Source: Escallonia rubra
Lineage: Eukaryota > Streptophyta > Magnoliopsida > Escalloniales > Escalloniaceae
DNA length: 64,000 bases
Direction of reading: 5' to 3'
Assembly (NCBI GenBank): GCA_033065855.1
Contig: JAVXUO010000430.1
Coordinates: 124,001 to 188,000 of the forward strand
Of this stretch, positions 9,297 to 39,492 are shown in pieces (the first letter of the stretch is position 1; every line of letters starts with the position of its first letter). Under the pieces are notes generated by a model. The model saw nothing but the letters and a program-made list of their open reading frames with translations, had not been told where the DNA came from and made no database searches. Both the position numbers and the translations under genes were made by a program.

Positions 9297-12200
9297 ATGT
9301 GGAGGCTGAAGATCGCGGAGGGAGGCAGTCCGTGGCTGCGGACGGTGAACGACCACGTCGGCAGGCAGGTCTGGGAGTTCGATCCGAAGCTCGGATCGCC
9401 GGATGAGCTGGTGGAGATCGAAGCGGTTCGGGAAGCATTCCGCAGCCGCCGCTTCGAGAAGAAGCACAGCTCAGATCTGCTCATGCGCATTCAGGTAGGT
9501 TGTACATGCATGAGAATAGTATCCCGTGTTTTAATTTGTTTTCTAATCGGGTTAAAATAGAGTATATTTGGGAGTTTGTGTGTTGTAATGAATACTGTAT
9601 AGGTTTGTCTGTTTTGGGTGTTGTTAACGTCGCATTTGACTGGTTTTAGAAGAGTAGGTCAGCAATAAAGACACCTAAGGACCAACAGATTAGCTGCACC
9701 TGTATGTATGCAAGAATGCTTAACTAACAGTATTGATGAGACAACTCATGATGCAATATTTTATTATTAATTAATTAATAGTTCTATGCTGATCTTCTTG
9801 ATTTTGCAAGCAACTGTTTTGTAGCAGCACCTGTACGCGGGGGTCTTAATTAACAGTATAAATGAGACAACTCATTATGCAATAATATATGATAACAATA
9901 CTTCCTCCGTTCCATTGGATGCTTCACCTCGACTTTTTACAAATTCCTAGGATTGGTTTTGATACATGCAGACATTAAATTGGACTATGATCATAAATTC
10001 TAGACTAAATAAGTTCCGTTTGGCAAGTCTAGCTAGGGTAAAAACAATGAGTAAATTCAAAGTTTACATGCACCAAATCCATCCTAGAAATTCGTAGAGA
10101 GTCAGAGGGAGAAATCTAATGGCACGGATGGGGTAGCATTATGCTAATCTCGATTCGTGTTCCTCGAATTGTTTTTGCAAGCAACTGTTTGATAGCACAC
10201 CATGATTTTCGTCGCCTTGACTTTTTGCTGAATTCGTAGTATAGAGTTTGGGCATGTAAATTTTGGCTTGCTCAATATTTTTACCATTGTTGACTTGCGA
10301 AGCAATTGTTATTTAACGCCGGAACTATCTGATTGCAATTCTATGTTAGCTCTTCTAGTTCTAAGCTTCAAATTTGCAAAAGTCGAAGGGAAAAAAGTAT
10401 TATTAGCCTGATGGAGTATTTAGTTGTATTGGCTGCATTGCTGGAAATATATTCTCGCTGTTTCTGTGATTAGCTTCGGGTTGGGAAAAAATTTGGTTAT
10501 GACAATTGGACTTGATTGTACTCTGAAGAAATTCTTGTTTAAGTTCGTTTAGCTTTTGGCCTAGAATCAAGCCTGCTGAATAAACAAGACGTTTGAATAA
10601 TAGTACATTCTTGCCTCTTAATTCTTTTATATATTTTTTTTGCTTTTAGGAGTAGGGGCTCATTCTTTTGTCAAGCTTTGGCTCAATTGGCTCGACTTAC
10701 GTGCTTACGGTTTGCGTACTCCATGAATAACCATGTTGCATGCTCGAGTGATTAGTCATGGAACTAATTTAACCGATCGCTTCTGAGGATATTGAGGATC
10801 AGGTGTTGTATACTGGTGCATCTTTTGGAGTAAATGATGTTAATTTGAAAAGCGTATACTATGAAAGTGAAGCTGTTGTCATGTTCCCAGCAGCCATGTA
10901 GGATGATTCTGCTATTTTGCAACAGATGTTCCAGCATCAGTTAAGAGATTCAAAAGTAATTTTATCTTACAATTGGGTTTCTTTGTTTCTTTTGGAAGAA
11001 TTAAAACTAAAATAACAATCATATGCCCAAAAACTTGTCTGTCTAAATAGGCTAACCTCATTCAACATTTTAGGTCCTATTTCTGCTATTTTGCAACAGA
11101 TGTTCCAGCATCAGATTAAGAGATTCAAAAGTAATTTTATCTTACAATTGGGTTTCTTTGTTTCTTTTGGAAGAATTAAAACTAAAATAACAATCATATG
11201 CCCAAAAACTTGTCTGTCAAAATAGGCTAACCTCATTCAACATTTTAGGTCCTATTTCAATCCTTGTTTGATCTATCAGTAATTAGCCCTTTAAGATTAG
11301 CTAGTGGGTCATATTAGCGACTCATTACTAGCAAGGCATTTTAAACCAGAAAAGGTGATTCTCATATACAATTTGCAGCCGTGGAATTGCAGTTGAAAAT
11401 TATGCTATCCAAAGCACTTTTCCTTCCTCGTCTTAGGATGGCCATGGGACATCTCCTTTTGGGCAGAATAGTATGTTAAGCTGGTAGGGATGTATGTAGG
11501 AGACCCCTTTGAAGTATTGCGAATTACTTTGTAGCTTACGAGCGAAGATTGGCAAATAGCTTCCCCTGTGGACTGGTAGGAAAAAAACATGAAAGTACAT
11601 AGGACTCAGCTAGTGGTCATAGGTAAAAGAAAGTAGGTGACTAGGTGTCCTTCCCATGCCAGTTTTTCTGGATCCTTTTTCCCTGTGATAAGGAAGTTGG
11701 TTGGTTTGGAAGGAAAAAATCTTTAATCGAGAGGTTGACGATCAGAATTCAACTTCAGCTCCTCCATTGATAATGGTTCACGATTTATCGATGCTGAAGA
11801 ACATGTTGCTTATAGGACTGACTGCTTAGTGGGTTCCTACTGAGGGAAATGCTCTCTCTCTCTCTCACTCACACTCACACCCACACACACACACCCCCAC
11901 ACACCCACACCCACCCCCCACCCCCCAAAAGAAGTTTTAGTGTGTGTTGCATGCATTTATACTCCATTTTGCTTGGAGAAAAGTGTAAGACTGGATTTCT
12001 CAATGTCTTTACTAAGCTGAAAATGATGACACAGCCACGAAATATATTTTTATACGTTAAAATCTTTCTTCTGGTTTTTGTATGGAACTTAATATCTGAA
12101 TTACGCGATTGCATTTTACACTGAAATTGTAGTTTGCAAAGGAGAATCCGGACAGAATAGTCTTACCCCAAGTCAGAGTTAAAGATACAGAAGATGTAAC

Positions 12201-27600: not shown

Positions 27601-28992
27601 AAAGGGATGTGGAGATACATATCTTCATGCAAAATGCTTATTATTATTATTATTATTATATATCTATAATAATGGACATCACTTTAAGGAAATGTAACAG
27701 CAAATGATGATCAGCATGCTTGAATGTCAAAAAGAAAAGAGAAACGTGCTAGTAAACAATGGCGATCAACTGATGTTGTTGCGTCCCTTTTCCCAAAATT
27801 TGGGTCGACAATCCACAATAAGGTAATACGAAGAAGACAATTAAGAAAGTACTGACATGTTTATTGTTAATTAATGACTCTCGAGACAACCGCAACCCGC
27901 GTTCGAAGGGCATGCTCAAGCAAGGAGAACGAGCCCGTTGGCCGCTTGCTTTTAACTTTCAAATATGATATTCACCGCTTTACAAAGATATATTACTATC
28001 TTTTTGGAACTCACCTCTCACTTTAGCGTAGAAGATGTTTTGAGAACGGGTATCCGACCAACGTAGAGGTGTCTTCTTGTTTTCTTGAAATGTTATCCAT
28101 TGAGGATGCTATCATTCCAGATGTTTGAAAGTAGCATCCGCACAAGGCTATTATCTGCTTACATCTTTTCTGAGAAGTCACATTTTTAGCTATTTTTAAA
28201 AGTTTTATCTCCCCCGTTCCCCCCCCCCCCCCCCCCTCTCTGAAACTACAAATATAACACACAAGTTCAACAAAACTATCGAGACTAAGATGATGGCTAC
28301 CCGGCATAAAAGCCCTTTATCAATAACCCTTAATTTTTAATTTTATAGTTCTTGATGTCTTAAGCCTTGTGCTTGTATAAAAGTTAAAACTTCAAGGTTT
28401 AAAATACAATTAGGCAAAATATTAGAAAAGTTGGTTCCAACACGTTTTTGTTTGTCTCTCAAAACTTTTGTGACTTTGAATGGTCATAATATTCTAACTC
28501 CCGATACCGATAGTTACTTTCTGAACAAATAATTTATGGTCAAATTTGTTTTTTTGATTCGCCTGTAAGGAGTATCATCGGGTCAACATTAACGTCAATC
28601 AAAACTAAGTTTTCTCTCCTGAAAATCTTAAAGGTGCACTCCGCATATCTGTCTGGTACATTTTGAATATTTTTCTACAAGATACTTAAATTAGTTGGGT
28701 CGTTTGTTCTATATTCACAATTATGACAAAATAAAAAGAATGGGAAATATTTTTCTATATATGGTCGGCTTCTCAATCGCCTGCAAGACCTTTCAAAATA
28801 AACAATAGGGCATCATGTATGTTACATCCAACGTAAGTAGAGATGATCTGGGCTAATTTATGGGTAATATTAATTAGTACGTAGCAAGACGGCAAAACAA
28901 AAGAAAGGAACTAAAATCAAAGCAAACAACTAACCCTACACTTTGAAATGTACACTTTGGAATGTGTTTTTTGGTGAAATCGGAAATATATA
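24641..28992. other. Intergenic region between the cyclase gene and the MULE
   Basis: No convincing gene. 25398-25640 holds two ~130-bp diverged tandem units (AACATGCTGCCACCAAGCATG / AACATGCTGTCACTAAGCATG). 26340-26930 is rich in inverted AGCTCG/CGAGCT and TTCGTGAACA/TGTTCAC words, resembling a decayed non-autonomous transposon. 26937-27198 has GAGCATGTTTAGA / TTCAAACAGGCTCTC ends like a small MITE. A 19-C run sits at 28219-28237. The frames here are short and lack family similarity. Confidence 0.5.
25398..25640. repeat. Two diverged ~130-bp tandem units
   Basis: ACATGATGAACAACATGCTG through GATGCTCGCATTGGCACATGG recurs 130 bases later as ACATGAAGCACAACATGCTG through GATGCTCACCTTGGAACATGG, with roughly three quarters of positions the same by eye. 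Confidence 0.65.
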
Positions 28993-29260
28993 GGGAGCTG
29001 ATCCGTTGAGAGCGTGGGCAAAATAGGAGAAGTTGCAAACGCGATCTGACCGTCCATCCCGAAAGATGGACGGTCCAGATCGCGCCTTTTTCAAAACCTG
29101 TCAGCCGTCCGCCATACAGTATGGCGGACGGGTTTTTTTACCAAATTGCCCCTCCGCGCCTGTCCGCTACACAGTAGCGCGGAGGGCATTAATGTCCTGA
29201 TGGGTGACAGCAAAAAGGCCTCCGCCATACAGTATGGCGGACGTCCCCTAGGCTGACCCC
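28993..29260 (+). repeat. Left terminal inverted repeat of the MULE
   Basis: About 265 bases that reappear inverted at 38832-39100 with about six substitutions and one T-run length change by hand count. The internal substitutions I saw are all C/T or G/A, as expected from deamination of methylated cytosines. It contains a nested hairpin (29038-29086) and three 23-bp GTCCGC-N11-GCGGAC type palindromes (29107, 29162, 29220). A fourth (29318) lies just inside the TIR, after a triple CCCCTGCCTGACA direct repeat. Confidence 0.93.
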
Positions 29261-29556
29261 TGCCTGACACCCCTGCCTGACACTGACCCCTGCCTGACAC
29301 GAGACAGCAAAAAAGGTATCCGCTATACAGTAGAGCGGAATAATTTCCACACAGAAACGCGGACAGGTGCTTCCCGTATACCCCCGAGGTTCCTGATTCT
29401 CAGCTCTCTTTCCTGAATTCTCAGAGCTCATCCCGCAAAATTCTCAAGCTCTTCCCGCAAAATTTTCTTCTCCTTCGGATTCACCTGGCTTCCATTTCCG
29501 GCTCCCCTCAAGCTACTTCGAGTAAAACTTGCTTCAATCTTCTTCACTCAAGCAAG

Positions 29557-29984
29557 GTAAGTTTCTCATCTCAGATATTTTCTGGGTGGATTGACTGATA
29601 AAGTATATATTTTATTTTGGGCAAAAAAATATAAATTTCTGATGATGTTCTAGAAATTAATTTGTTAACTTTAAAGAAGTTTATTGTAGTTAATTTTGAT
29701 TTTTTTGAGGGGCGCTAACTTCGGCACATCTATCCTATTTAAATTCGAATTTTTTGAGATACGTTTGTTGTATTTTGGCATGATGAATTTGTCTAACGCT
29801 CTTAGTAATTGTAATTTGTTATGTTCAATAAATCTATAATTAGCAAAATGGGAGACTTTTGAGATTATGTATATGGTATATTTGTCATCTTAAATTTGTC
29901 TATTCGTCACGATAATTTTAAGGTAATATTTTCAGTTGAAAATGTCATTTGATTGTTCAGCGTAGTCTATATTTCTACATATAG
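29557..29984 (+). other. Probable 5'UTR intron of the transposase gene
   Basis: A strong donor (AAGCAAG|GTAAGT) and an acceptor (TTCTACATATAG|GGAG) lie just before the ATG at 29999. The intron is AT-rich. It supports 29999 as the ancestral translation start. Confidence 0.55.
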
Positions 29985-29998
29985 GGAGCTGTTTCACA

Positions 29999-32296
29999 AT
30001 GTCTGATTTCGTGTCGAGCTCCAACACCCCCGTAGATGCTAGTGATCCGTATCTAGGACGAACCTTTCAAACATTGGAGGAAGCTGGAGAATGTTTCTGA
30101 GCGTATTCATTGAGGGTTGGATTTGGCATTAGAATAAAGACTTCAAGAACGAGCAACATAACGAGAAAGATATGCTCTCGTATGTACGAGTGCCATAGGG
30201 GCAGAAACCCAGTGCAAAATGAGACACGCGTAGGCAATGAGGACAGTGATGACGAAATAGGCTATTCGCGCAGAAGACGGGACTTCTTTGTGCGAACGAA
30301 TTGCCAGGTCAAGATGTTCGTAAGCTATAAACCCAAGAAAGATCATTGGCTTATTAGCAGCCTGGAACTGGCACACAATCACCCGTTAGTAACCCCTTCT
30401 AAGGTGAGTCAGATGCATCAACACAAGAAGATGGGAAAGGTCGCGAGGAGCCTCATTCACACAATGAGCGATGCGCGTCTAGGACCTACCGACATGATTA
30501 ATGTTCTTGCTGAACAGGCCGGGGGAATTCAAAATTTAAACTTTAACACGACAGACGTTCGCAACGAGGTCCGAACCCATAGACGAGCCGCGTATGACCT
30601 CAATGATGCTCAAGCCACAATGAGCCTATTGAAGCGGATGCAGATGGAGGACCCGCAGTTTACCTTCGATTATAAACTTGACGACGAGCATCGAGTTAGC
30701 ACAATTTTTTGGGTCGACGGTCGTTCCAGGCTTGCTTATAAGCATTTTGGGGATGTCGTGACTTTCGACACCACATACCGTACCAACAAGTACTCGATGC
30801 CGTTTGCCCCTTTCACGGGGGTCAATCATCATTATCACTCCATCCTGTTCGGGTTCGCCTTGTTACGGGACGAGAGCGAGAGTTCTTTTGAATGGTTGTT
30901 TAGGGCGTGGCTGGAAGCCATGAACTTTAAAGCACCCAACGTTATCATCACCGATCAAGATTTGGCAATGAAGAAGGCTATTGCCACCGTCTTCCCAGAT
31001 ACTCGACACAACTTGTGCACTTGGCACATAAGCAACAAATACCCCGAACGTTTGCATCACGTGAATGCAAAGTTTCCAGAATTTAAACAGGATTTTGACA
31101 CGTGCGTTAGCAAGTCGTTAACTATTGAGGAATTTGAGGAGAGGTGGGAAAAGCTTGTTCAGGATTACTCATTGCAAGACAACGGGTGGCTCCAGCACTT
31201 GTACGAGCTCAAAGAGCAATGGATTGGCGTTTACACGAGGAGGCATTTTTCTGCGGGCATGAGAACGACGGGCAGGAGTGAATCTATGAATGCCACTTTC
31301 GATAGTTACGTGGGTACATCTACCAATTTGAAGAGTTTCGTCACATCCGCACAGAAAGCGGTTGCGTCGTTGTTCGTGAAAGAAAGGGCTGCAGACTTTG
31401 CAACCACGTACAAACAGAGGAGAAGGTTGCTTGAGACCCCGCTGGAGCTGAACGGTGCCAAAGTCTATACGAAGGAGATCTTCTTGCTATACCAAGTAGA
31501 GCTGCAGAAATCGGGACGGTACTGTATAAACAAGGTGGCGGAGAAGTCTACGCGTGAGTACAAGGTTTATTCGCTCGTGAATGACCTCGTTCCTGAGAAG
31601 CTGCGCAGAATGTATACGGTGAGCCACGACACATTGACGGACTCAGTGACATGTGTTTGCAAGAAGTTTGAGTTCCATGGCATCCTGTGTAGACACATTC
31701 TGCGCTTTTTCACCCAGAAGAATATCAGGACAATTCCCGATAAATACGTCTTGCCACGGTGGACGAAAGGTGCAAACAGGTTGCACGGTACCATTGCTTT
31801 TCCGGAGCACCCGTATACTGACTTTGAAGAATCGGAGACGTTGCGGTATAATCATCTGGTGACGAGTTTCACCCGTTTGTTCGTAAAGGCTGCTGCTTCA
31901 ATGGTCGGTTATAAACATCTCCTCGAGGTAGCTCAGCAGCAAGAGCCCATCATCGACCAGTTGGAAGCAGCCGCTGTCACCAGTGCGATTGACACCAAGC
32001 CTACGACGGGGGTATCAGAAGATGACGAGCCGGGGGAGGAAGACGACAATGATATTTGTTTGTTGGACCCAATTATATCGCAAACGAAAGGCCGCAAGAG
32101 ATCTACGCGGATGAAAAGCTCTATTGAAACGGCAACTCAACCTAAAAAGCTGCGAAGGTGTGCATTGTGCAACAAAATGACCGACCACGACAAGCGGAAC
32201 CATTACAAGGCACTGGGGATAAGTTCGGGGGGTTTGCAAGACGGGGAAGAAGGTGACGCCGAAGACGAGGACGAACAAGCTGCAGTGGACCTTTAA
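29999..32296 (+). CDS. MULE transposase, FAR1/FHY3-like, with one in-frame stop near the N terminus
   Basis: The frame from ATG 29999 begins a FAR1-type domain (FQTLEEAGECF) but meets TGA at 30098-30100, then stays open to 32296. The first ATG after the stop is 30182, which would give about 704 aa and still keep the Cys/Cys/His/His of the WRKY-like FAR1 finger (YEC, NCQVKM, HNH). Counting from 30110 as residue 1, the DDE catalytic acids are Asp220 (DTTYRT), Asp282 (TDQD, followed by CTWH) and Glu391 (GRSESMN). A SWIM zinc finger (C515-x-C517-x9-C527-x-H529) and an acidic C-terminal tail follow. It binds and cuts element TIRs in the nucleus. FAR1/FHY3 are domesticated relatives, but location inside TIRs makes this a transposase. 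Whether the shortened protein works is open. Confidence 0.9.
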
Positions 32297-32446
32297 TTTT
32301 TTGTACAACGTTATGACATTTGTAATAATTTTCGGAGGGATAATTTTTCCACCAAATGCTGGAAATATTAAAAAATGGACACTGTGAGAGGCCATCGAAT
32401 TAAATGTATAGTCTTTTTTTTTTAAGTTATTTTTTTTTTGTAAGCC

Positions 32447-32752
32447 CCTCCGCTATAAAATATAACGGACGTCATCGCAGTAAACTTTTGGCCTGCTTAT
32501 TCGTCCGCTATACAATATAGCGGACTTCATGAGCAGTAAAAGTTTTGGTCTGCTTTCACGTCCGCTATACAATATAGCGGACCTCATGAGCAGTAAAAGT
32601 TTTGGTCTTCATTTACGTCCGCTATACAATATAGCGGACATCATGAGCAATAAAACTTTTGGTCTTCATTTACGTCCGCTAGACAATATAGCGGACGTCA
32701 TCGAAGAAAAACTTTTGGTGTTCTTTTACGTCCGCTATATAAAGTGGCGGAT
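32447..32752 (+). repeat. Array A: six 57-bp tandem units each with the 23-bp palindrome
   Basis: The palindrome CGTCCGCTATACAATATAG(CGGAC) starts at about 32447, 32502, 32559, 32616, 32673 and 32729, so the period is 55-57 bases. The spacer is CATGAGCAGTAAAAGTTTTG-like. The array sits between the transposase stop and the B3 start codon and so occupies the B3 promoter. The outermost copies are the most degraded. Confidence 0.95.
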
Positions 32753-32924
32753 AACTCTATCCTACTATATATATTAATCATATCGCTAAATCAGCTGTTA
32801 TCAGTCCTATCTGAGGGCACCTCTCTCTGTCTCGAACATCTGCCGCTACTCCGTCTCCGGCACCCACATCTCCGGTGGCCCAGAACTCCGGCATTAAACC
32901 GTCCTCCCCTCAACGCCGACCTCG

Positions 32925-33387
32925 ATGGCTTCTGGATCGGAGACCACCAACGATTTTATTGGCAACTTGCATCTGGCAGGCAAACACTTTTTCAAAGTCA
33001 TGATGCCGGGGTTTGAGAATGTACTTGTAGGCCATCCTTATTTCTCTGTATTTTCGTGTGTTAAAGGTTTGATGTTTTGGTTAAAAACTAACATACTTTT
33101 TGTGTTGTGTTTGTTAGGACATACCGGAAGCCTTGACCAATCAATTTACAACAATTCATGACAGTGCAAGATTATATAGCCGCAAGGGGGCATGGCAGGT
33201 TGAAATCAAGCTGAAGCCCGGCCGACCCCAAAAAAAGCAATTCGCAGAGGGTTGGAACGTCTTCGTGCGCCAGCATGGCCTTGAACTCGGGGACTTTGTA
33301 GTGTTTGAACACCTTGGGTGGTGGGATTTTCAAGTTGTAATCTTTGATCGGAGCACTTGTGAAAAAAATTTCTTTCCCCCAATGTGA
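32925..33387 (+). CDS. Single B3-domain DNA-binding protein captured in the MULE (2 exons, 123 aa)
   Basis: Exons 32925-33026 and 33118-33387 join in phase 0 (GTACTT|GTAGGC donor, TTGTTAG acceptor). The protein is essentially one B3 fold: HFFKVMMPGFENVL and DIPEALTNQF (strand 1 with the IP-F signature), then GAWQVEIKLKPG (WxV strand), FAEGWNVFVRQHGLELGDFV (W-x-F...L-x-GD-x-V core) and VFEHLGWWDFQVVIFD. This order is typical of REM-type plant B3 domains, which bind DNA through the major groove. No other domain and no breaks are visible. It lies inside the MULE, downstream of palindrome array A, on the transposase strand. A role in recognising the element's own repeats is inference; a passively captured host fragment is the alternative. 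Confidence 0.85.
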
Positions 33388-33458
33388 ACCCTAATTTATT
33401 ATTAATAAAATAATTTTTGTTCTTGTTGATTGTGTTTCGAAATTTTTCCTTGCTTATT

Positions 33459-33577
33459 TGTGTCGCTTGCGATTCCCTCAATATATTGAGATCGTTGATT
33501 GTGAATCGTACGTTAATTGTGTCGTTTGAGATTCCGTCGGTATATTGAGATCGTTGACTGTGAATCGTACGTTCTTT
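33459..33577 (+). repeat. 59-bp tandem duplication after the B3 gene
   Basis: TGTGTCGCTTGCGATTCC...TATTGAGATCGTTGATTGTG and its near copy TGTGTCGTTTGAGATTCC...TATTGAGATCGTTGACTGTG follow each other directly, both ending GAATCGTACGTT. Confidence 0.8.
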
Positions 33578-33773
33578 ATTGTTTATCGATATTGAGATTG
33601 TTGATTCTGACGCCAAAACAAGTCTTCGGGGCGCCAATTTATTAAAACAGCATTATGCTACAATGCGACTACAACAAGCCAATTTATTAAAATTGCGGAA
33701 CGCTACAACTTCTAGCTCTACTACATAGCGGACCACGCTGAGTGCACCTGTGCCGCAACGTCGTTCACTTAAT

Positions 33774-33985
33774 ATGTCGCGGCGTAATGTTAAGCAGTGT
33801 AAGAAAGCAGTGCGCCAAATTCGTATGGAGAATAACCGGATGTTGCTGCGTAGAAAACGATTTTATATGCTTCAACTTGCGGAAGAAATGGTCGAGGTTA
33901 GTGGGAGGCAGCTCACATCAAACGAGAGAAACAATATTTTAACCAATGATCAGTACTCATCTGATGAGTATATGTCAAATGAAGA

Positions 33986-33989
<4 letters not shown>
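33774..33989 (+). CDS. Small basic ORF of unknown function in the MULE (71 aa)
   Basis: ATG 33774 opens a frame that starts MSRRNVKQCKKAVRQIRM and ends SSDEYMSNEE. The N-terminal half is strongly basic with an Arg/Lys-rich amphipathic stretch (RMENNRMLLRRKRFYMLQLAEEM), and the C terminus is acidic. It ends just before an (AT)n run. I do not recognise a family. The charge layout is compatible with a small nucleic-acid-binding or helical protein, but chance is possible at this length. Confidence 0.4.

Positions 33990-34021
<32 letters not shown>
33989..34021. repeat. (AT)n microsatellite inside the MULE
   Basis: About 30 bases of alternating AT directly after the small ORF. Confidence 0.95.
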
Positions 34022-34026
<5 letters not shown>

Positions 34027-34164
34027 TTCTACTGCATGCTAGGATTTCATTCCAACCGGCACTCATCCACATGTCATTCTAATTGGTGTATCCCGTCTTT
34101 TGAAGCATGTAAAATGTTGGGAATATATGTTTCTAACTACATCCATCATACTATAATGGGGTAA

Positions 34165-34365
34165 CTAGCATGCCTAAGGTGCAATGAGAAAAAAAAAGTG
34201 ACATAAAAAATTACAACATTTTTCGCAAGCTATGAATTTGGCGCTAAACTGTGCGCGAATAGGCCCTTCATAGGAAAACCAAAAAAATAAATTGTCTCGT
34301 TTTTCGCCGAAATTCATAGAAATTGGCTATATAGCGTGCCTAAGGTGCAATGAGCAAAAAAAATT
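34165..34365 (+). repeat. Direct repeat flanking array B on the left
   Basis: AGCATGCCTAAGGTGCAATGA at about 34168 recurs as AGCGTGCCTAAGGTGCAATGA at about 34333, both followed by A-runs and a TTACA word. It is a spaced direct repeat of about 45 bases with a 165-base step. Confidence 0.8.
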
Positions 34366-34374
34366 ACATATCTA

Positions 34375-34825
34375 CATCCGCTAAACTATATCGCGGACAG
34401 CCAAACAGAATGTACAGCACTTAGTTTTTTTTGGGGCGCCTATTTACGTCCGCTAAACTATATCGCGGACGGCCAAGCAGAATGTAGCCTCCCCAACACT
34501 TAGTTTTTTTTTGGGGCCCTATCTACGTCCGCTAAACTATATCGCAGACGGCCAAGCAGAATGTAGCCTCCCCAACACTTAGTTTTTTTTTGGGGCCCTA
34601 TCTACGTCCGCTAAACTATATCGCGGACGGCCAAGCAGAATGTAGCCTCCCCAACACTTAGTTTTTTTGGGGCCCTATCTACGTCCGCTAAACTATATCG
34701 CCGATGGCCAAGCAGAATGTAGCCTCTCCATTACTTAGTTTTTTTTTGGGTCCTATTTACGTCCGCTAAACTATATCGCGGACGGCCAAGCAGAATGTAC
34801 CCTCCACAACACTTAGTTTTTTTTC
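34375..34825 (+). repeat. Array B: six ~78-bp tandem units with the GTCCGC-N11-GCGGAC motif
   Basis: The CCGCTAAACTATATCGCGG core begins at about 34378, 34450, 34529, 34608, 34685 and 34763 (steps 72, 79, 79, 77, 78). Each is followed by GGCCAAGCAGAATGTAGCC, CCCCAACACTTAG, a T-run and GGGGCCCTATCTAC. The GTCCGC/GCGGAC arms and 23-bp length match array A and the TIRs, but the core differs. It lies between the B3/small-ORF side and the 3' end of the minus-strand ULP1 part, so it separates the two convergent gene sets. Confidence 0.95.
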
Positions 34826-35049
34826 GGCCATATCTAGTCTCCCCTACTGAAAGCAAATCACACAGAACAAATAAAACACTCAGCTGAACAACACAACGAT
34901 ATCACTGAATCAAATCAATCGCATTCAACAACGATCACATCTCAGTCAACACAGATGAAATCGTCAATCGCATTCAAACGATAAGATTGAAGAAGTTTAA
35001 GGATAATTAGTAAAGTCAATATAGCGGACGTTATTATACGCAAACATTG

Positions 35050-36218
35050 TCAATTACACGGATTTACAATATATCTAATAGGTCTAGGCCGGCCATTGAT
35101 AATTTGCCAAGCCATCCTATACCTAAAGCAATCTATGCAGTCTTGGGTCCAGACGGTCTTCTTGAGGCTCTCCGATCGACAGATGTAATCCGTGTACATG
35201 CAGAGGTAGACGCCGCAGTCCGAGGTATTAAGTTGCTTGGGCCTAGTCCTCTTCAATCGGAAAACAACCTCCCTATCGCCCGCTGCCCTCATTTGGGGGG
35301 TCTCTTTTTTACGCTCTCTACTGACCATGGCAGCAAATAGATTCTGCGAGTAACAGGATAAGCATTAAACATTAAACATAGCAAACATAATACGATTAAT
35401 CAGTTCAAAATTATGCAAGTTACAATAAGAAGTAAACATGCTCTTACCATTGGATTCAACATCCCTAAGCCTACGTACATGTCAATCACACCAATCGCGT
35501 CCGTATCATCGTAGAGACTGTCAAGGACTGATACGGTATTCGTTACCGGTTCATAGCAAATCAAGAACCAGTGGGCATTAATTATAGCAGGGAGTAGAAA
35601 CACATCTGCCACACTTGCGCGCTCTGGACTCGGCCGACCAAGATATGCGAGTAGGTTAGCGGACGGTCTCCACTTGATCTCGGCCTTCGCCTTTCTCGCC
35701 TGCTTCCTCGCCTTGTCCCACTCGTTAAAGTCTTGTACTAGCATATTGTGAAAGTAAGCATCGAGGATAAAAATGCGCGGACCGTAGTTAGGCTGCTCCC
35801 GACTCCTTTGCCGCAGAATTTGCACGTAGTGCGAGATGACGAAGTTGTCTAACCACATCCCCGGCGCCAGCGTAGACAGTTCTTTCCACGAGACACTGTA
35901 ATCCAAGCCCTGCGGGTTTTTCACGGCATACGACTCTTCGTCTGGGGGGGGCCCGCTAAAATAACGGTGATGGATTAGGTGGTGTTTATGCGGCTTCAGG
36001 GGCCTGGCTGGATGCCCTTTCGGATATTGCCCTCGGGGGTCGACCGGTTGCTCTTGCCCTCCGCCGGGGGCAAGAGCAACGGAAGAAATTGGCCTCCAAC
36101 CAACGGATCGGCCGGCTGATAATCGCCTTCGGGGGCGCCTGCCGGCTGATATTGCTCGCCGGCCATTTCTTCCTCCGGCTGATATTGCCCTTCGGGGCCG
36201 CCAAGTGGTCCCGCCCAC
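35050..36218 (-). CDS. ULP1/C48 SUMO-protease-like domain, C-terminal part of the PMD locus
   Basis: Exons on the minus strand: (36218)-35448 and 35343-35050, joined in phase 0 (AATCCAATG|GTAAGAG and CTCGCAG|AATC). All catalytic elements of a C48 protease are present: His in NAHWFLICYEP (35571-35573), Asp in VLDSL (35520-35522), Gln in KQLNTSDCG and Cys in DCGVYLC (35215-35217). Such enzymes cleave SUMO or related conjugates. It has no good start of its own: the frame is open upstream through the Gln/Pro-rich linker of the PMD gene, but in another phase. Most likely it was the C-terminal half of one PMD-ULP1 protein. ULP1-like genes carried by MULEs are known (Kaonashi). Confidence 0.8.
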
Positions 36219-38222
36219 GGGACAATGGGCAGTGCCTCGTTAAAACCGTATTGCCATTCTTGCGTGACTTGACTCTGAGAGAGGGGTTGGGGTTCCGGGA
36301 ACAAATCGAAGGTCGGGCCGCTGTAATCGGCCCACGACGCTTGAGCATGTCCCATCCCCGGTACAGAGGGACCACCAACTCCCTGGCTCACCCCTGAAGC
36401 TTGCCCGGAGGGATCAACGTTATACGGGCTGGCGCCCGTATAACCCATTCCCGGGCTGTCGACCGAAGACTGCCCCGATGCTTGCCGCACAAAATTCCCG
36501 CAGCCTATAGCCAGTGCAGCAGCCTGTTGGCGAAGATCCTCGCCCATTGCGCTCATCAGATCCTTCCGCTCACTCAACTTCTGGAAGAATGCAAGCGAGG
36601 CATTAACCTACATCCAAAGAGATAACAAATAAGTAACTTTAATCAGTTCTGATATATTGAAGACAAGTTGGGCAACTTACGAGATTGTATGCCATCTGCT
36701 CGTCGATCTGACCCCTAGGCGCATACCTCGCCCCGCGTTCAAAGTTGACTGGGGCTACTCTCCTCCGCGTGATGCGGGAGTACCACTCATCATACTTCGC
36801 GATGCTGATAACGGGGTCCGGCTCCGAGACGATGGCCGCCAGTGTGTCCTGCCAAGAAGTCCAGAGCTCTAGTTCGGCCGCGCACAATTCTTGCACATTG
36901 GCCTTGCCAAACCGCCCGACATCCGGTGGGTCCCTGTTAACCCTCATATCTGGGGCACCGGCGGGCAAACCCTGCTCCAACTCAAAATGGCGCATTGCTC
37001 GGTCTGGCAGCTGCCACTCTGCGACCTCGAAGTGGATGAGGGGTGTGCGCTGCAACCCGGATAGCGTGAAGACGAACGACTCTTCAACCCGTCGCGCCAA
37101 ACCTATGTACGGTGCCCAACGCAATTGGCCCGGAGATAGGCGGTCGAACTCCCCTCGATAGAACGTGATGTTGTGATGGGGATCGACTCTCCTGCGGTAG
37201 TGGCTATTATTCCGGCTGTACTCCCAAGCACGCAACCGAGGCCACACTCTATCGGTTCCATCCCTACGCGTCGGTGAACCGGGAGCAAGGTGTTCATAAG
37301 ACCACACCTGAAAAAATGGACAAATTATATTTATATCGTCGATTCAACAAAAGCGAAAACAAAAAAAAAACAATAACGAAGACAGGATTTATATGATATA
37401 CCTGCAATAGCGAGAGACATGCACATATGGCTTTGGAGTCGGGCCTCGTTGCCTTGTGCAATGCTCGGTACAGATACGAAAGAACCGCTGCACCCCATGC
37501 ATAATCTCCAACCTCAGCCAGGTTACTCAACAACGGTAAATATTTCACCCTGGCCGTGTTCTTCGACGTCGTTGGGAATAAAATTGCCCCCATCACCCAC
37601 CAGAGGAAGGCTTTTGTGTAAAGCACAAGCTCATGGCCCGTATAGTTTTTCGGCAATACCCTGTACGTATTTACCAACCACTTCAACTTTATACCACCAC
37701 TGCTAAATTTATCCTGGGGTATCGAATGGAGGAAGTCCCTAGCGGTTCTCGTCTTCGTTGCTTCTGACGGAGGAGCAATTACCGTCAGCCCCGTCACCGG
37801 CAATCCTAAGATGAACCCTACATCTTCTAAGGTAATTGCCAGCTCTCCGAGCGGGAAGTGAAACGTATTCGTTTCACTTCTCCACCTCTCAACAAGGGCA
37901 CCTATCAAGGCCCGGTCAAGCTGTTGAAATATCTGCCCATGCGTGAAAATCCCAAACCCAATTCCACGCAGTATCCTCTTCTGGGCGGTGTTCAGTTTCC
38001 ACGATACTATATCGCGAGATACTTCTACGGTGTTGACAAGTTCTCTTTCCTACGAATTAATAAATACAATTTAAGCGCTCTCAACGGTATATACAACGTT
38101 CGTAAGAATAAGAAAAGTTTATAAATAATGTATCTTACTCCACCATCCCATATGAGCGTACTGATATGGTTAGCTTGGTCGTATAACACGGATGGGTCTT
38201 CAGGTCCAGGGTTAAATTCCAT
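35996..38222 (-). CDS. Plant mobile domain (PMD/MAIN-like) gene of the MULE, 4 exons, frameshifted before ULP1
   Basis: Minus-strand exons 38222-38139, 38049-37402, 37307-36681 and 36607 onward, all phase 0. The first three give a PMD fold: MEFNPGPEDPSVL, FHFPLGELAITLEDVGFILGL, LLSNLAEVGDYAWGAAVLSYLY, LSLLQ|VWSYEHLAPGSP, and RVEESFVF onward. Exon 4 adds a repetitive GQYQPEE/EQYQPAG/GDYQPAD linker and stops at 35996. A 5'UTR intron (38519-38232) ends 9 bases before ATG 38222. From exon 4 start to the ULP1 donor is 1160 bases, one short of a multiple of three, so a net -1 (or +2) indel separates PMD from ULP1. PMD proteins MAIN and MAIL1 act in transposon silencing and meristem upkeep; the TE-borne form's function is unknown. 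Confidence 0.82.
36047..36080. repeat. Perfect 13-bp inverted repeat at the PMD-ULP1 phase break
   Basis: GTTGCTCTTGCCC (36047-36059) and its exact inverse GGGCAAGAGCAAC (36068-36080) flank 8 bases. It lies in the interval where the reading frame must shift from PMD to ULP1. Confidence 0.9.
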
Positions 38223-38669
38223 TTTTTGCAACTGAAATTATGAAAAAACCTTCTCAGTTTGGATTTTACGTTTTGGATTTTGATAATAAGAAGCGAAACT
38301 ACGACGCTAGCACATGCATAATACATATAACGAGTTAGCACATGAATGATACGTACAATGTTAGCATATGTACTCATATGTATAAATATATATACTATTA
38401 CGGAATCGGATTTTGCAAACGCTTGCACAAGAACAAGAACAAGAACATACATATATAAAACGCAATATTCATCATAACCGAATATTACAGACAAAAAAGC
38501 GTAGATTTTGTGAACTTACGTGATCGATTTAGGGTATATTGAACACCGGAATTTCGCCGATATGCTTGCCAACGCCGGTGGTAAAGAGTGGATATTGCGT
38601 AGAAAGTGTATATTTTGTGAGTAGAAAGAGTGGAGAAGAGTGTCGTAGTTACTGCCGTTTGCAAGTATA

Positions 38670-38765
38670 CTGAACGTCCGCAATACAGTACCGCGGATGG
38701 CTATTACGTCCGCGATACAATATCGCGGATGGCTATACGTCCGCTAAACTGTATAGCGGACACTG
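38670..38765 (-). repeat. Cluster C: three 23-bp palindromes upstream of the PMD gene
   Basis: GTCCGCAATACAGTACC, GTCCGCGATACAATATC and GTCCGCTAAACTGTATA, each completed by GCGGA(T/C), start at about 38677, 38708 and 38739, about 31 bases apart. They sit upstream of the PMD 5'UTR, just inside the right TIR. Confidence 0.92.
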
Positions 38766-38831
38766 TTGACGTGACAGATAAGGACAAGATAACCGTCATT
38801 GCCGAAAAAACTGACGGGACAGGCCCTGACA

Positions 38832-39100
38832 GGTGTCAGCCTAGGGGACGTCCGTCATACTGTATGGCGGAGGCCTTTTTGCTGTCACCTATCAGGACAT
38901 TAATGCCCTCCGCGCTACTGTGTAGCGGACAAGCGCGGAGGGGCAATTTGGTAAAAAAAACCCGTCCGCCATACTGTATGGCAGACGGCTGACAGGTTTT
39001 GAAAAAGGCGCGATCTGGACCGTCCATCTTTCGGGATGGACGGTCAGATCGCGTTTGCAACTTCTCCTATTTTGCCCACGCTCTCAACAGATCAGCTCCC
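38832..39100 (-). repeat. Right terminal inverted repeat of the MULE
   Basis: Mirror of the left TIR, ending CAGATCAGCTCCC at 39100 against the AT-rich flank. It carries the same nested hairpin (about 39008-39056) and three of the 23-bp palindromes (about 38850, 38918 and 38963), each with one or more C/T-type changes relative to the left copy. Confidence 0.93.
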
Positions 39101-39492
39101 ATATATATATATATATATGTTATCGATCTTTAATACTACACTGCATATGCATCTGGTATGCCCACAATCACTAGTCATAAATGAAGGGAGGAGCAAGGCT
39201 ATCTTTTTACACTCAAAACCTCAGATTAACTAGAAGAGAAAAAAAATAAGCATAATATATGTAAGATAAGATGTCATCAAACTCAAGTCAAGGATTCGAC
39301 TTAAGTTGTCAGTTTATGTGTCATTGTCCCTTGAAAACCAACTGAACCCCAATTAAGTATTGGTGTACGAGGTATCAACACTTTCTCAAGTTTCAAGTGC
39401 TCATCCACGTACAGTGCATTCTTGGGTCAACCAAGCCATGTTCTTCAATTTACAAACCTAGTTTATTTATTTTGATGATGAGTGCTAAGTTG

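Follow-up and report, generated by a model that had tools for sequence, protein, structure and literature searches.

The question raised by a 64,000-nucleotide stretch of the Escallonia rubra genome (contig JAVXUO010000430.1 of a 566-Mb assembly; the whole stretch is called the window below) is what reads a 23-bp palindrome, GTCCGC-N11-GCGGAC, that recurs throughout a single Mutator-like element (MULE; 28993-39100, 10,108 bp) inserted in a TA-rich stretch (a TA run). The window contains 23 matches with no more than two mismatches over the 12 arm bases, compared with a mean of 0.42 in 100 shuffled sequences; 22 of the 23 fall inside the element, and their length is constantly 23 bp. The match at 32090-32112 was rejected as a site, being a chance match within the transposase reading frame. 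The explanation that we favor tentatively, with somewhat less than even confidence and from sequence comparison, is that the palindrome may be a cis-acting sequence in a family of MULEs that target (TA)n, recognized by the element's own B3-domain protein as a dimer and serving both as an operator and in protection from silencing.

The palindromes are distributed as four at the left end (29107-29340; starts at 29107, 29162, 29220 and 29318), six in cluster 1 at steps of about 57 bp (32448-32752) upstream of the B3 gene, six in cluster 2 at steps of 72-79 bp (34376-34783), three in cluster 3 at steps of 31-32 bp (38676-38761) upstream of the PMD gene, and three in the right terminal inverted repeat (TIR; 38850-38986; starts at 38850, 38908 and 38964). 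An earlier interpretation of the same DNA (the sequence-only reading) had described about 22 copies of this constant-length motif in both TIRs and three internal clusters, as found here. It had also placed the clusters at promoters and gene ends, which holds for those upstream of genes and for both ends of the element; cluster 2, however, lies past the 3' end of the PMD/C48 gene, and may be the promoter of a 71-residue open reading frame (ORF), because two related copies carry this ORF on the minus strand, downstream of cluster 2.

Both of the larger arrays are duplicated in tandem, spacers included (units of 57 bp and 79 bp), so the uniformity of the core within each cluster, correctly observed in the sequence-only reading, is partly trivial. 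The conservation of the arms claimed in that reading is evident in cluster 1, where five units show 1 change in 60 arm positions, 5 in 55 core positions and 27 in 160 spacer positions, but not in cluster 2 (3 of 60, 0 of 55 and 12 of 250, respectively), so that the arms are clearly better kept than the spacer only in the former. The idea of conserved arms around a free core was rejected by position counts: over the 22 copies in the window, A8 is present in 21, A10 in 22, C11 in 20 and T14 in 21, and the core is part of the site. From 180 distinct sequences representing 261 instances (the window plus the loci fetched by then; the coding match at 32090 was removed only where its core had one of three spellings), we derived the consensus GTCCGC-N-A-Y-A-Y-W-R-T-R-T-N-GCGGAC, which resolves into two inverted 10-bp half-sites GTCCGCNAYA (containing TCCGCNAYA) separated by a 3-bp spacer. 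At the CpG positions of the arms, transitions (58 of 720) are twice as frequent as at the remaining C/G positions of the arms (29 of 720), the pattern that past methylation of the sites would leave.

The spacing of the arms is rigid. Twenty fetched regions, most of them picked for having sites with a gap of 11, contain 52 exact arm pairs at that gap and none at the other 39 gaps between 0 and 39. The host assembly contains 19,579 exact N11 sites and only 2 matches to the reversed pattern, whereas the 29 gap lengths from N12 to N40 together give 421 exact matches versus 453 for the reversed control, and several of the listed N12-N40 matches are chains of N11 sites. The motif is therefore far more abundant than the sequence-only reading had noted. 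That reading had named a motif common outside the family as evidence against its proposal that the arms are bound by an element-encoded protein, either the transposase or B3, yet the 50 genomic sites in the sample, which come from five contigs, are all within or next to members of the family: 47 in elements with at least one scored TIR tip (4 of these in a one-tip copy), two next to a transposase copy with no scored tip on their side, and one in a small element whose variant tip was seen by eye. No palindrome was found in seven other fetched stretches totaling 66,172 bases. Members range from a miniature inverted-repeat transposable element (MITE) of 136 bp (C9:532596-532731), which retains two sites, to 12,941 bp, and three long copies (C1:10519-22558, C9:209717-222657 and C9:511925-521747) have the gene order of the window element and comparable clusters.

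The element has the terminal inverted repeats expected of a MULE, about 270 bp each and 95-96% complementary (28993-29262 on the plus strand and 38830-39100 on the minus strand). Both tips read GGGAGCTGATC(C/T)GTTGAGAGCG, and the flanks, CGGAAATATATA and ATATATATATAT, are TA repeats in which any target-site duplication of 8-11 bp is indistinguishable. The same target recurs across copies: a TATATA-like run, read by eye, is present in the 12-bp flank of 20 of 21 TIR tips with five or fewer mismatches, the remaining flank being (TG)n, in a tally that leaves out one unpaired match (C1:10123) and the matches with six mismatches. The family thus inserts in TA microsatellites in the manner of MuTAnT elements. 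Each TIR also holds, between the tip and the first palindrome, another and longer inverted repeat (29045-29079 on the left, with a counterpart on the right) with arms of about 14 bp and a 6-base loop, and the left one has a DNA fold z of -4.8; no RNA family reached its gathering score in 28900-39200. Two other loci of the host genome (L014 and L017) contain inverted repeats of a different kind, their sequence being of the GCGACGGA type (TTTTAGCGACGG...).

The candidate reader is a protein of 123 residues encoded on the plus strand (32925-33387; exons 32925-33026 and 33118-33387, with splice sites inferred) with a B3 domain, a known DNA-binding domain, at residues 22-112 (Pfam E value 4.9e-9; 36.5 bits versus a cut-off of 30.1); the nearest solved chain is VRN1, a weak match (E value 0.019). 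A putative TATA box for this gene (32765-32780, plus strand) begins 13 bp past the last palindrome of cluster 1. The window B3 sequence has at least 241 genomic matches (the best 150 of 1,933 candidates scored), and a diverged B3 query has at least 150 (the best 150 of 1,396 candidates scored), 63-100% identical and many without stops. Forty B3 regions of about 1.6 kb were fetched, hand-chosen for diversity, and 38 were readable after exclusion of a contig-end stub of 270 bases and a region that is mostly N. Two or more sites are present upstream of B3 in 27 of the 38 and none in the other 11; transposase sequence is found in the stretch in 24 of the 27 but in only 1 of the 11. With the window copy added to the 27, a TATA box lies within 70 bp past the last site in 21 of 28 copies, at +13 or +14 in 18 of them. 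Of 44 B3 exon-2 stretches, 37 are open and long enough. Several B3 copies without neighboring transposase or palindromes in the stretch (L044, L048-L054 and L058) also have an open exon 2 and are in part near-identical to many other B3 matches, and B3 may ride on another mobile unit.

The mechanism that we propose is that a DNA-binding protein encoded by the element, most probably the 123-residue B3 protein, would occupy the two-fold site as a dimer, a constant part of it reading TCCGC and a changing part reading base 9 of the half-site. From the promoter arrays and the ends, B3 would control the genes of the element, including its own, the latter suggested by the frequent position of the last site immediately ahead of the B3 TATA box. 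By analogy with VANC proteins, B3 may also shield the CpG-containing sites, and hence the ends, from host silencing, so that autonomous and non-autonomous copies alike could be moved; the presence of CpGs in each arm, and their decay, is consistent with methylation of the sites in silent elements.

B3 has diverged rapidly. The fraction of B3 residues that differ between type A (5 copies) and type B (13 copies) is 0.42, but in the C-terminus of the transposase of the same copies the difference is 0.13 between types versus 0.14 within type B. The mean ratio of nonsynonymous to synonymous substitution rates (dN/dS) of B3 is 0.82-0.90 for type A versus the others, 0.66-0.83 within and between the others and 0.47 within type A, compared with 0.39-0.81 for the transposase C-terminus. 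B3 is lightly constrained, with decay after insertion adding to the high dN/dS, and positive selection is unsupported by these ratios. Synonymous divergence between types A and B is also higher in B3 (0.45) than in the transposase (0.16), on partly different copies, which suggests that the B3 segment is older or has been exchanged. The loop before FAEGW, which differs between the types by a one-residue length change and several substitutions, aligns, as judged with FUS3, with the presumed C-terminal DNA-contact arm of solved B3 domains.

Base 9 of the half-site tends to vary together with B3. Over 27 copies it correlates with B3 distance (Mantel r 0.50, p 0.0002; 0.48 given the transposase). 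In cluster 1, type B copies have predominantly C at this position (C 89, T 14, A 2, G 1 in 14 copies). The stretch at the left end, past the transposase gene, is a better test than the promoter. There, type A has T 59 and C 11 in eight copies with sites, one of them 4:4, type B has C 35 and T 5 in six copies with sites, and the intermediate copy C1 has C 5 and T 3; the difference between types A and B is significant by copy (Fisher p 0.005) and after collapsing by eye to four and six lineages (p 0.03), in a sample in which several type A copies owe their assignment solely to their match with the window B3, four type A copies are close kin and one copy contributes a single site. The agreement of left-end base 9 with B3 type in this small sample is concordant with reading by B3, not conclusive.

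Several observations weigh against B3 as the reader. The leader, exon 1 and intron beside B3 correlate with base 9 equally (r 0.52), and B3 given these segments keeps only r 0.21 (p 0.02), so that the correlation at the promoter can mostly be explained by linkage; a strong claim of co-evolution between B3 and its site from the promoter alone was withdrawn for this reason. Cluster 1 half-sites are mixed in type A (T 57, C 26, G 3 in seven copies) and in intermediate copies (C 57, T 38, A 1 in ten copies). Sites are absent from the left-end stretch in 1 of 9 copies of type A and in 4 of 10 of type B, and the TIR tip was found in only 2 of 12 fetched stretches scanned, so some left-end sites may belong to arrays next to the TIR instead of to the TIR itself. 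The argument from base 9 is weakened by these missing tips and by the mixed promoters of type A. The arms show no variation with B3 although the B3 types differ by about 40%, and a protein that reads TCCGC must therefore keep that part constant. Among readable B3 regions without transposase sequence in the stretch, 10 of 13 have no site. Non-coding MITEs keep sites, as they would keep a site for transposase binding.

This last point leads to the main alternative, which is possible but on balance improbable: that the palindromes are bound by the FAR1-type N-terminal domain of the transposase for assembly of the ends, the internal clusters being self-regulatory, like the TnpA sites of Spm/En and the MURA sites of Mu. 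At 15 of 20 hand-picked ends, the distance from the tip to the first site is 110-121 bp (exactly 114 bp at 8), in non-coding elements as well; the 136-bp MITE has not lost its two sites; and the transposase is well conserved (84-91% identical in the three long copies, 76-82% in a fourth fragment), as are the arms. Against this alternative are long arrays, with as many as 16 sites, in the interior of elements at a distance from the ends, and the sites immediately before the B3 TATA box, and base 9 tracks the transposase C-terminus weakly given B3 (r 0.20, p 0.08), in a test that had the FAR1 end outside it. The FHY3/FAR1 core is CACGCGC, which was not seen by eye in the palindromes of the window or in the left TIR.

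It is quite unlikely that the site serves a host factor, such as a B3 or FAR1-like regulator of the host, and that the element has captured and amplified a host regulatory palindrome. Amplification of host transcription-factor sites by MITEs is known for E2F (PMC13317346, from the available portion of the text), but in the small samples described above none of the 50 listed sites is clearly outside the family and none occurs in the seven other stretches. Least probable, and hardly credible, is that no protein is involved, the palindrome being hairpin or cruciform DNA or a functionless by-product of the tandem duplications that make up the arrays: among three individual copies tested in single-stranded form, two have strong folds (z of -7.2 and -8.5), and some copies pair over 10 bp per arm (29107 and 32560), but the tested cluster 2 copy (34448) has lost the inner pairing and pairs over 6 bp only, the arm positions of the 180 distinct sequences pair no more often than independence predicts (covariation exceeds it only at 9/15, 0.63 versus 0.47, and at 7/17, 0.77 versus 0.68), and the 23-bp site is shared by clusters with differing spacers and the gap of 11 is rigid. 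Hairpin or cruciform function was rejected on the inability of the cluster 2 copy to pair inside and on the absence of arm covariation.

The transposase gene (29999-32296, plus strand) encodes FAR1, MULE (PF10551, E value 8.3e-33) and SWIM domains; the window copy has an in-frame TGA at 30098-30100 after its ATG, followed by an open frame at 30110-32296, and five other matched copies are without a stop at this position, two of them with other stops nearby. The gene for PMD and the Ulp1-like C48 protease (35050-38222, minus strand) has several exons, with its ATG at 38222 (Pfam PMD and Peptidase_C48). A Pfam search of seven frames of the element and two further proteins identified FAR1, MULE, SWIM, ZSWIM RNaseH-like, B3, PMD, DUF7745 and C48, and neither DUF1985 nor DUF287. 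The 71-residue ORF (33774-33989, plus strand) belongs to no Pfam family (best UPF0231, E value 0.087, below the cut-off) and is present in two of the three further long copies, not being found in the third; the segment that holds it (33732-34124, with a pure AT run at 33989-34022) is inverted relative to two related elements. Directly after the B3 gene is a 59-bp tandem duplication (33454-33571), and elsewhere in the window (10907-11258) a 175-bp unit is duplicated in tandem with 98% matches.

The closest known parallel is the VANDAL/VANC system of Arabidopsis (PMC5735166, PMC10398659), and the likeness drawn in the sequence-only reading is apt as an analogy. From the available portions of these papers, VANDAL elements are likewise MULEs with extra genes, have dense tandem arrays of a short motif in their own non-coding DNA and upstream of genes, and encode a fast-evolving protein alongside a conserved transposase; KIU-type VANC genes, too, contain a C48/Ulp1 domain (PMC13317346, available portion). 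The VANC21 motif, YAGTATTAY, is by contrast 9 bp long and described as arrayed in one orientation, whereas the site here is two-fold and 23 bp; VANC proteins carry DUF1985/DUF287 instead of a small B3 domain; and VANDAL TIRs are described as degenerate, unlike the matching TIRs of about 270 bp here. The string 'palindrom' is absent from the text of both papers. With its long TIRs, FAR1-type transposase, (TA)n target and B3 instead of a VANC-like protein, the element is not a VANDAL.

In its target it resembles MuTAnT/AutoMuTAnT (PMC4486113), SaTar/Micron and the pineapple Ac-mMITE families (PMC5907723, PMC8449440), which according to the portions of these sources available are Mutator-related, reside in TA microsatellites and, as here, comprise many short non-autonomous copies with few or no autonomous ones. 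The AutoMuTAnT transposase is Jittery-like and its element has a single ORF, to which B3, PMD/C48 and a small ORF are added here (PMC4486113); no autonomous partner was found for pineapple Ac-mMITE, to which the resemblance is by description (PMC8449440). No palindromic site array is described for MuTAnT in the available part of PMC4486113, and 'palindrom' does not occur in those of PMC8449440 and PMC5907723. The FAR1 N-terminus, SWIM domain, long TIRs and antisense PMD are shared with the FAR1 and SWIM MULEs of the Jittery sub-group and with antisense-PMD MULEs (PMC6446971, available portion), in the text of which survey 'B3 domain' has no occurrence; a B3 domain is reported in long terminal repeat elements of Aegilops tauschii (PMC9289625, available portion). 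Already known, then, are MULEs that target (TA)n, the occurrence of PMD and C48 in such elements as MULEs, and the binding of motif arrays by VANC. A B3 gene in a MULE with its own family of palindromic operators was not found in the literature searched (titles and the beginnings of abstracts), and five motif or tip pieces of 14-16 letters matched no literature text, a weak test since papers seldom print such letters.

It is conceivable, though doubtful, that this is a second, independently evolved system of anti-silencing or self-regulation in plant MULEs, in which a captured B3 domain reads a two-fold palindrome that the family carries down to 136-bp MITEs, and diversifies with its sites into subfamilies, with C or T at base 9, that would no longer cross-activate each other. 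The established plant case of a transposon protein recognizing its own family by a short repeated motif is VANC. If a B3 fold does the job of VANC in a TA-targeting MULE, sequence-specific self-recognition by transposons would be a recurrent solution; about 20,000 sites in one genome would then provide test material, and would hint at how MITEs without genes stay under the control of the element.

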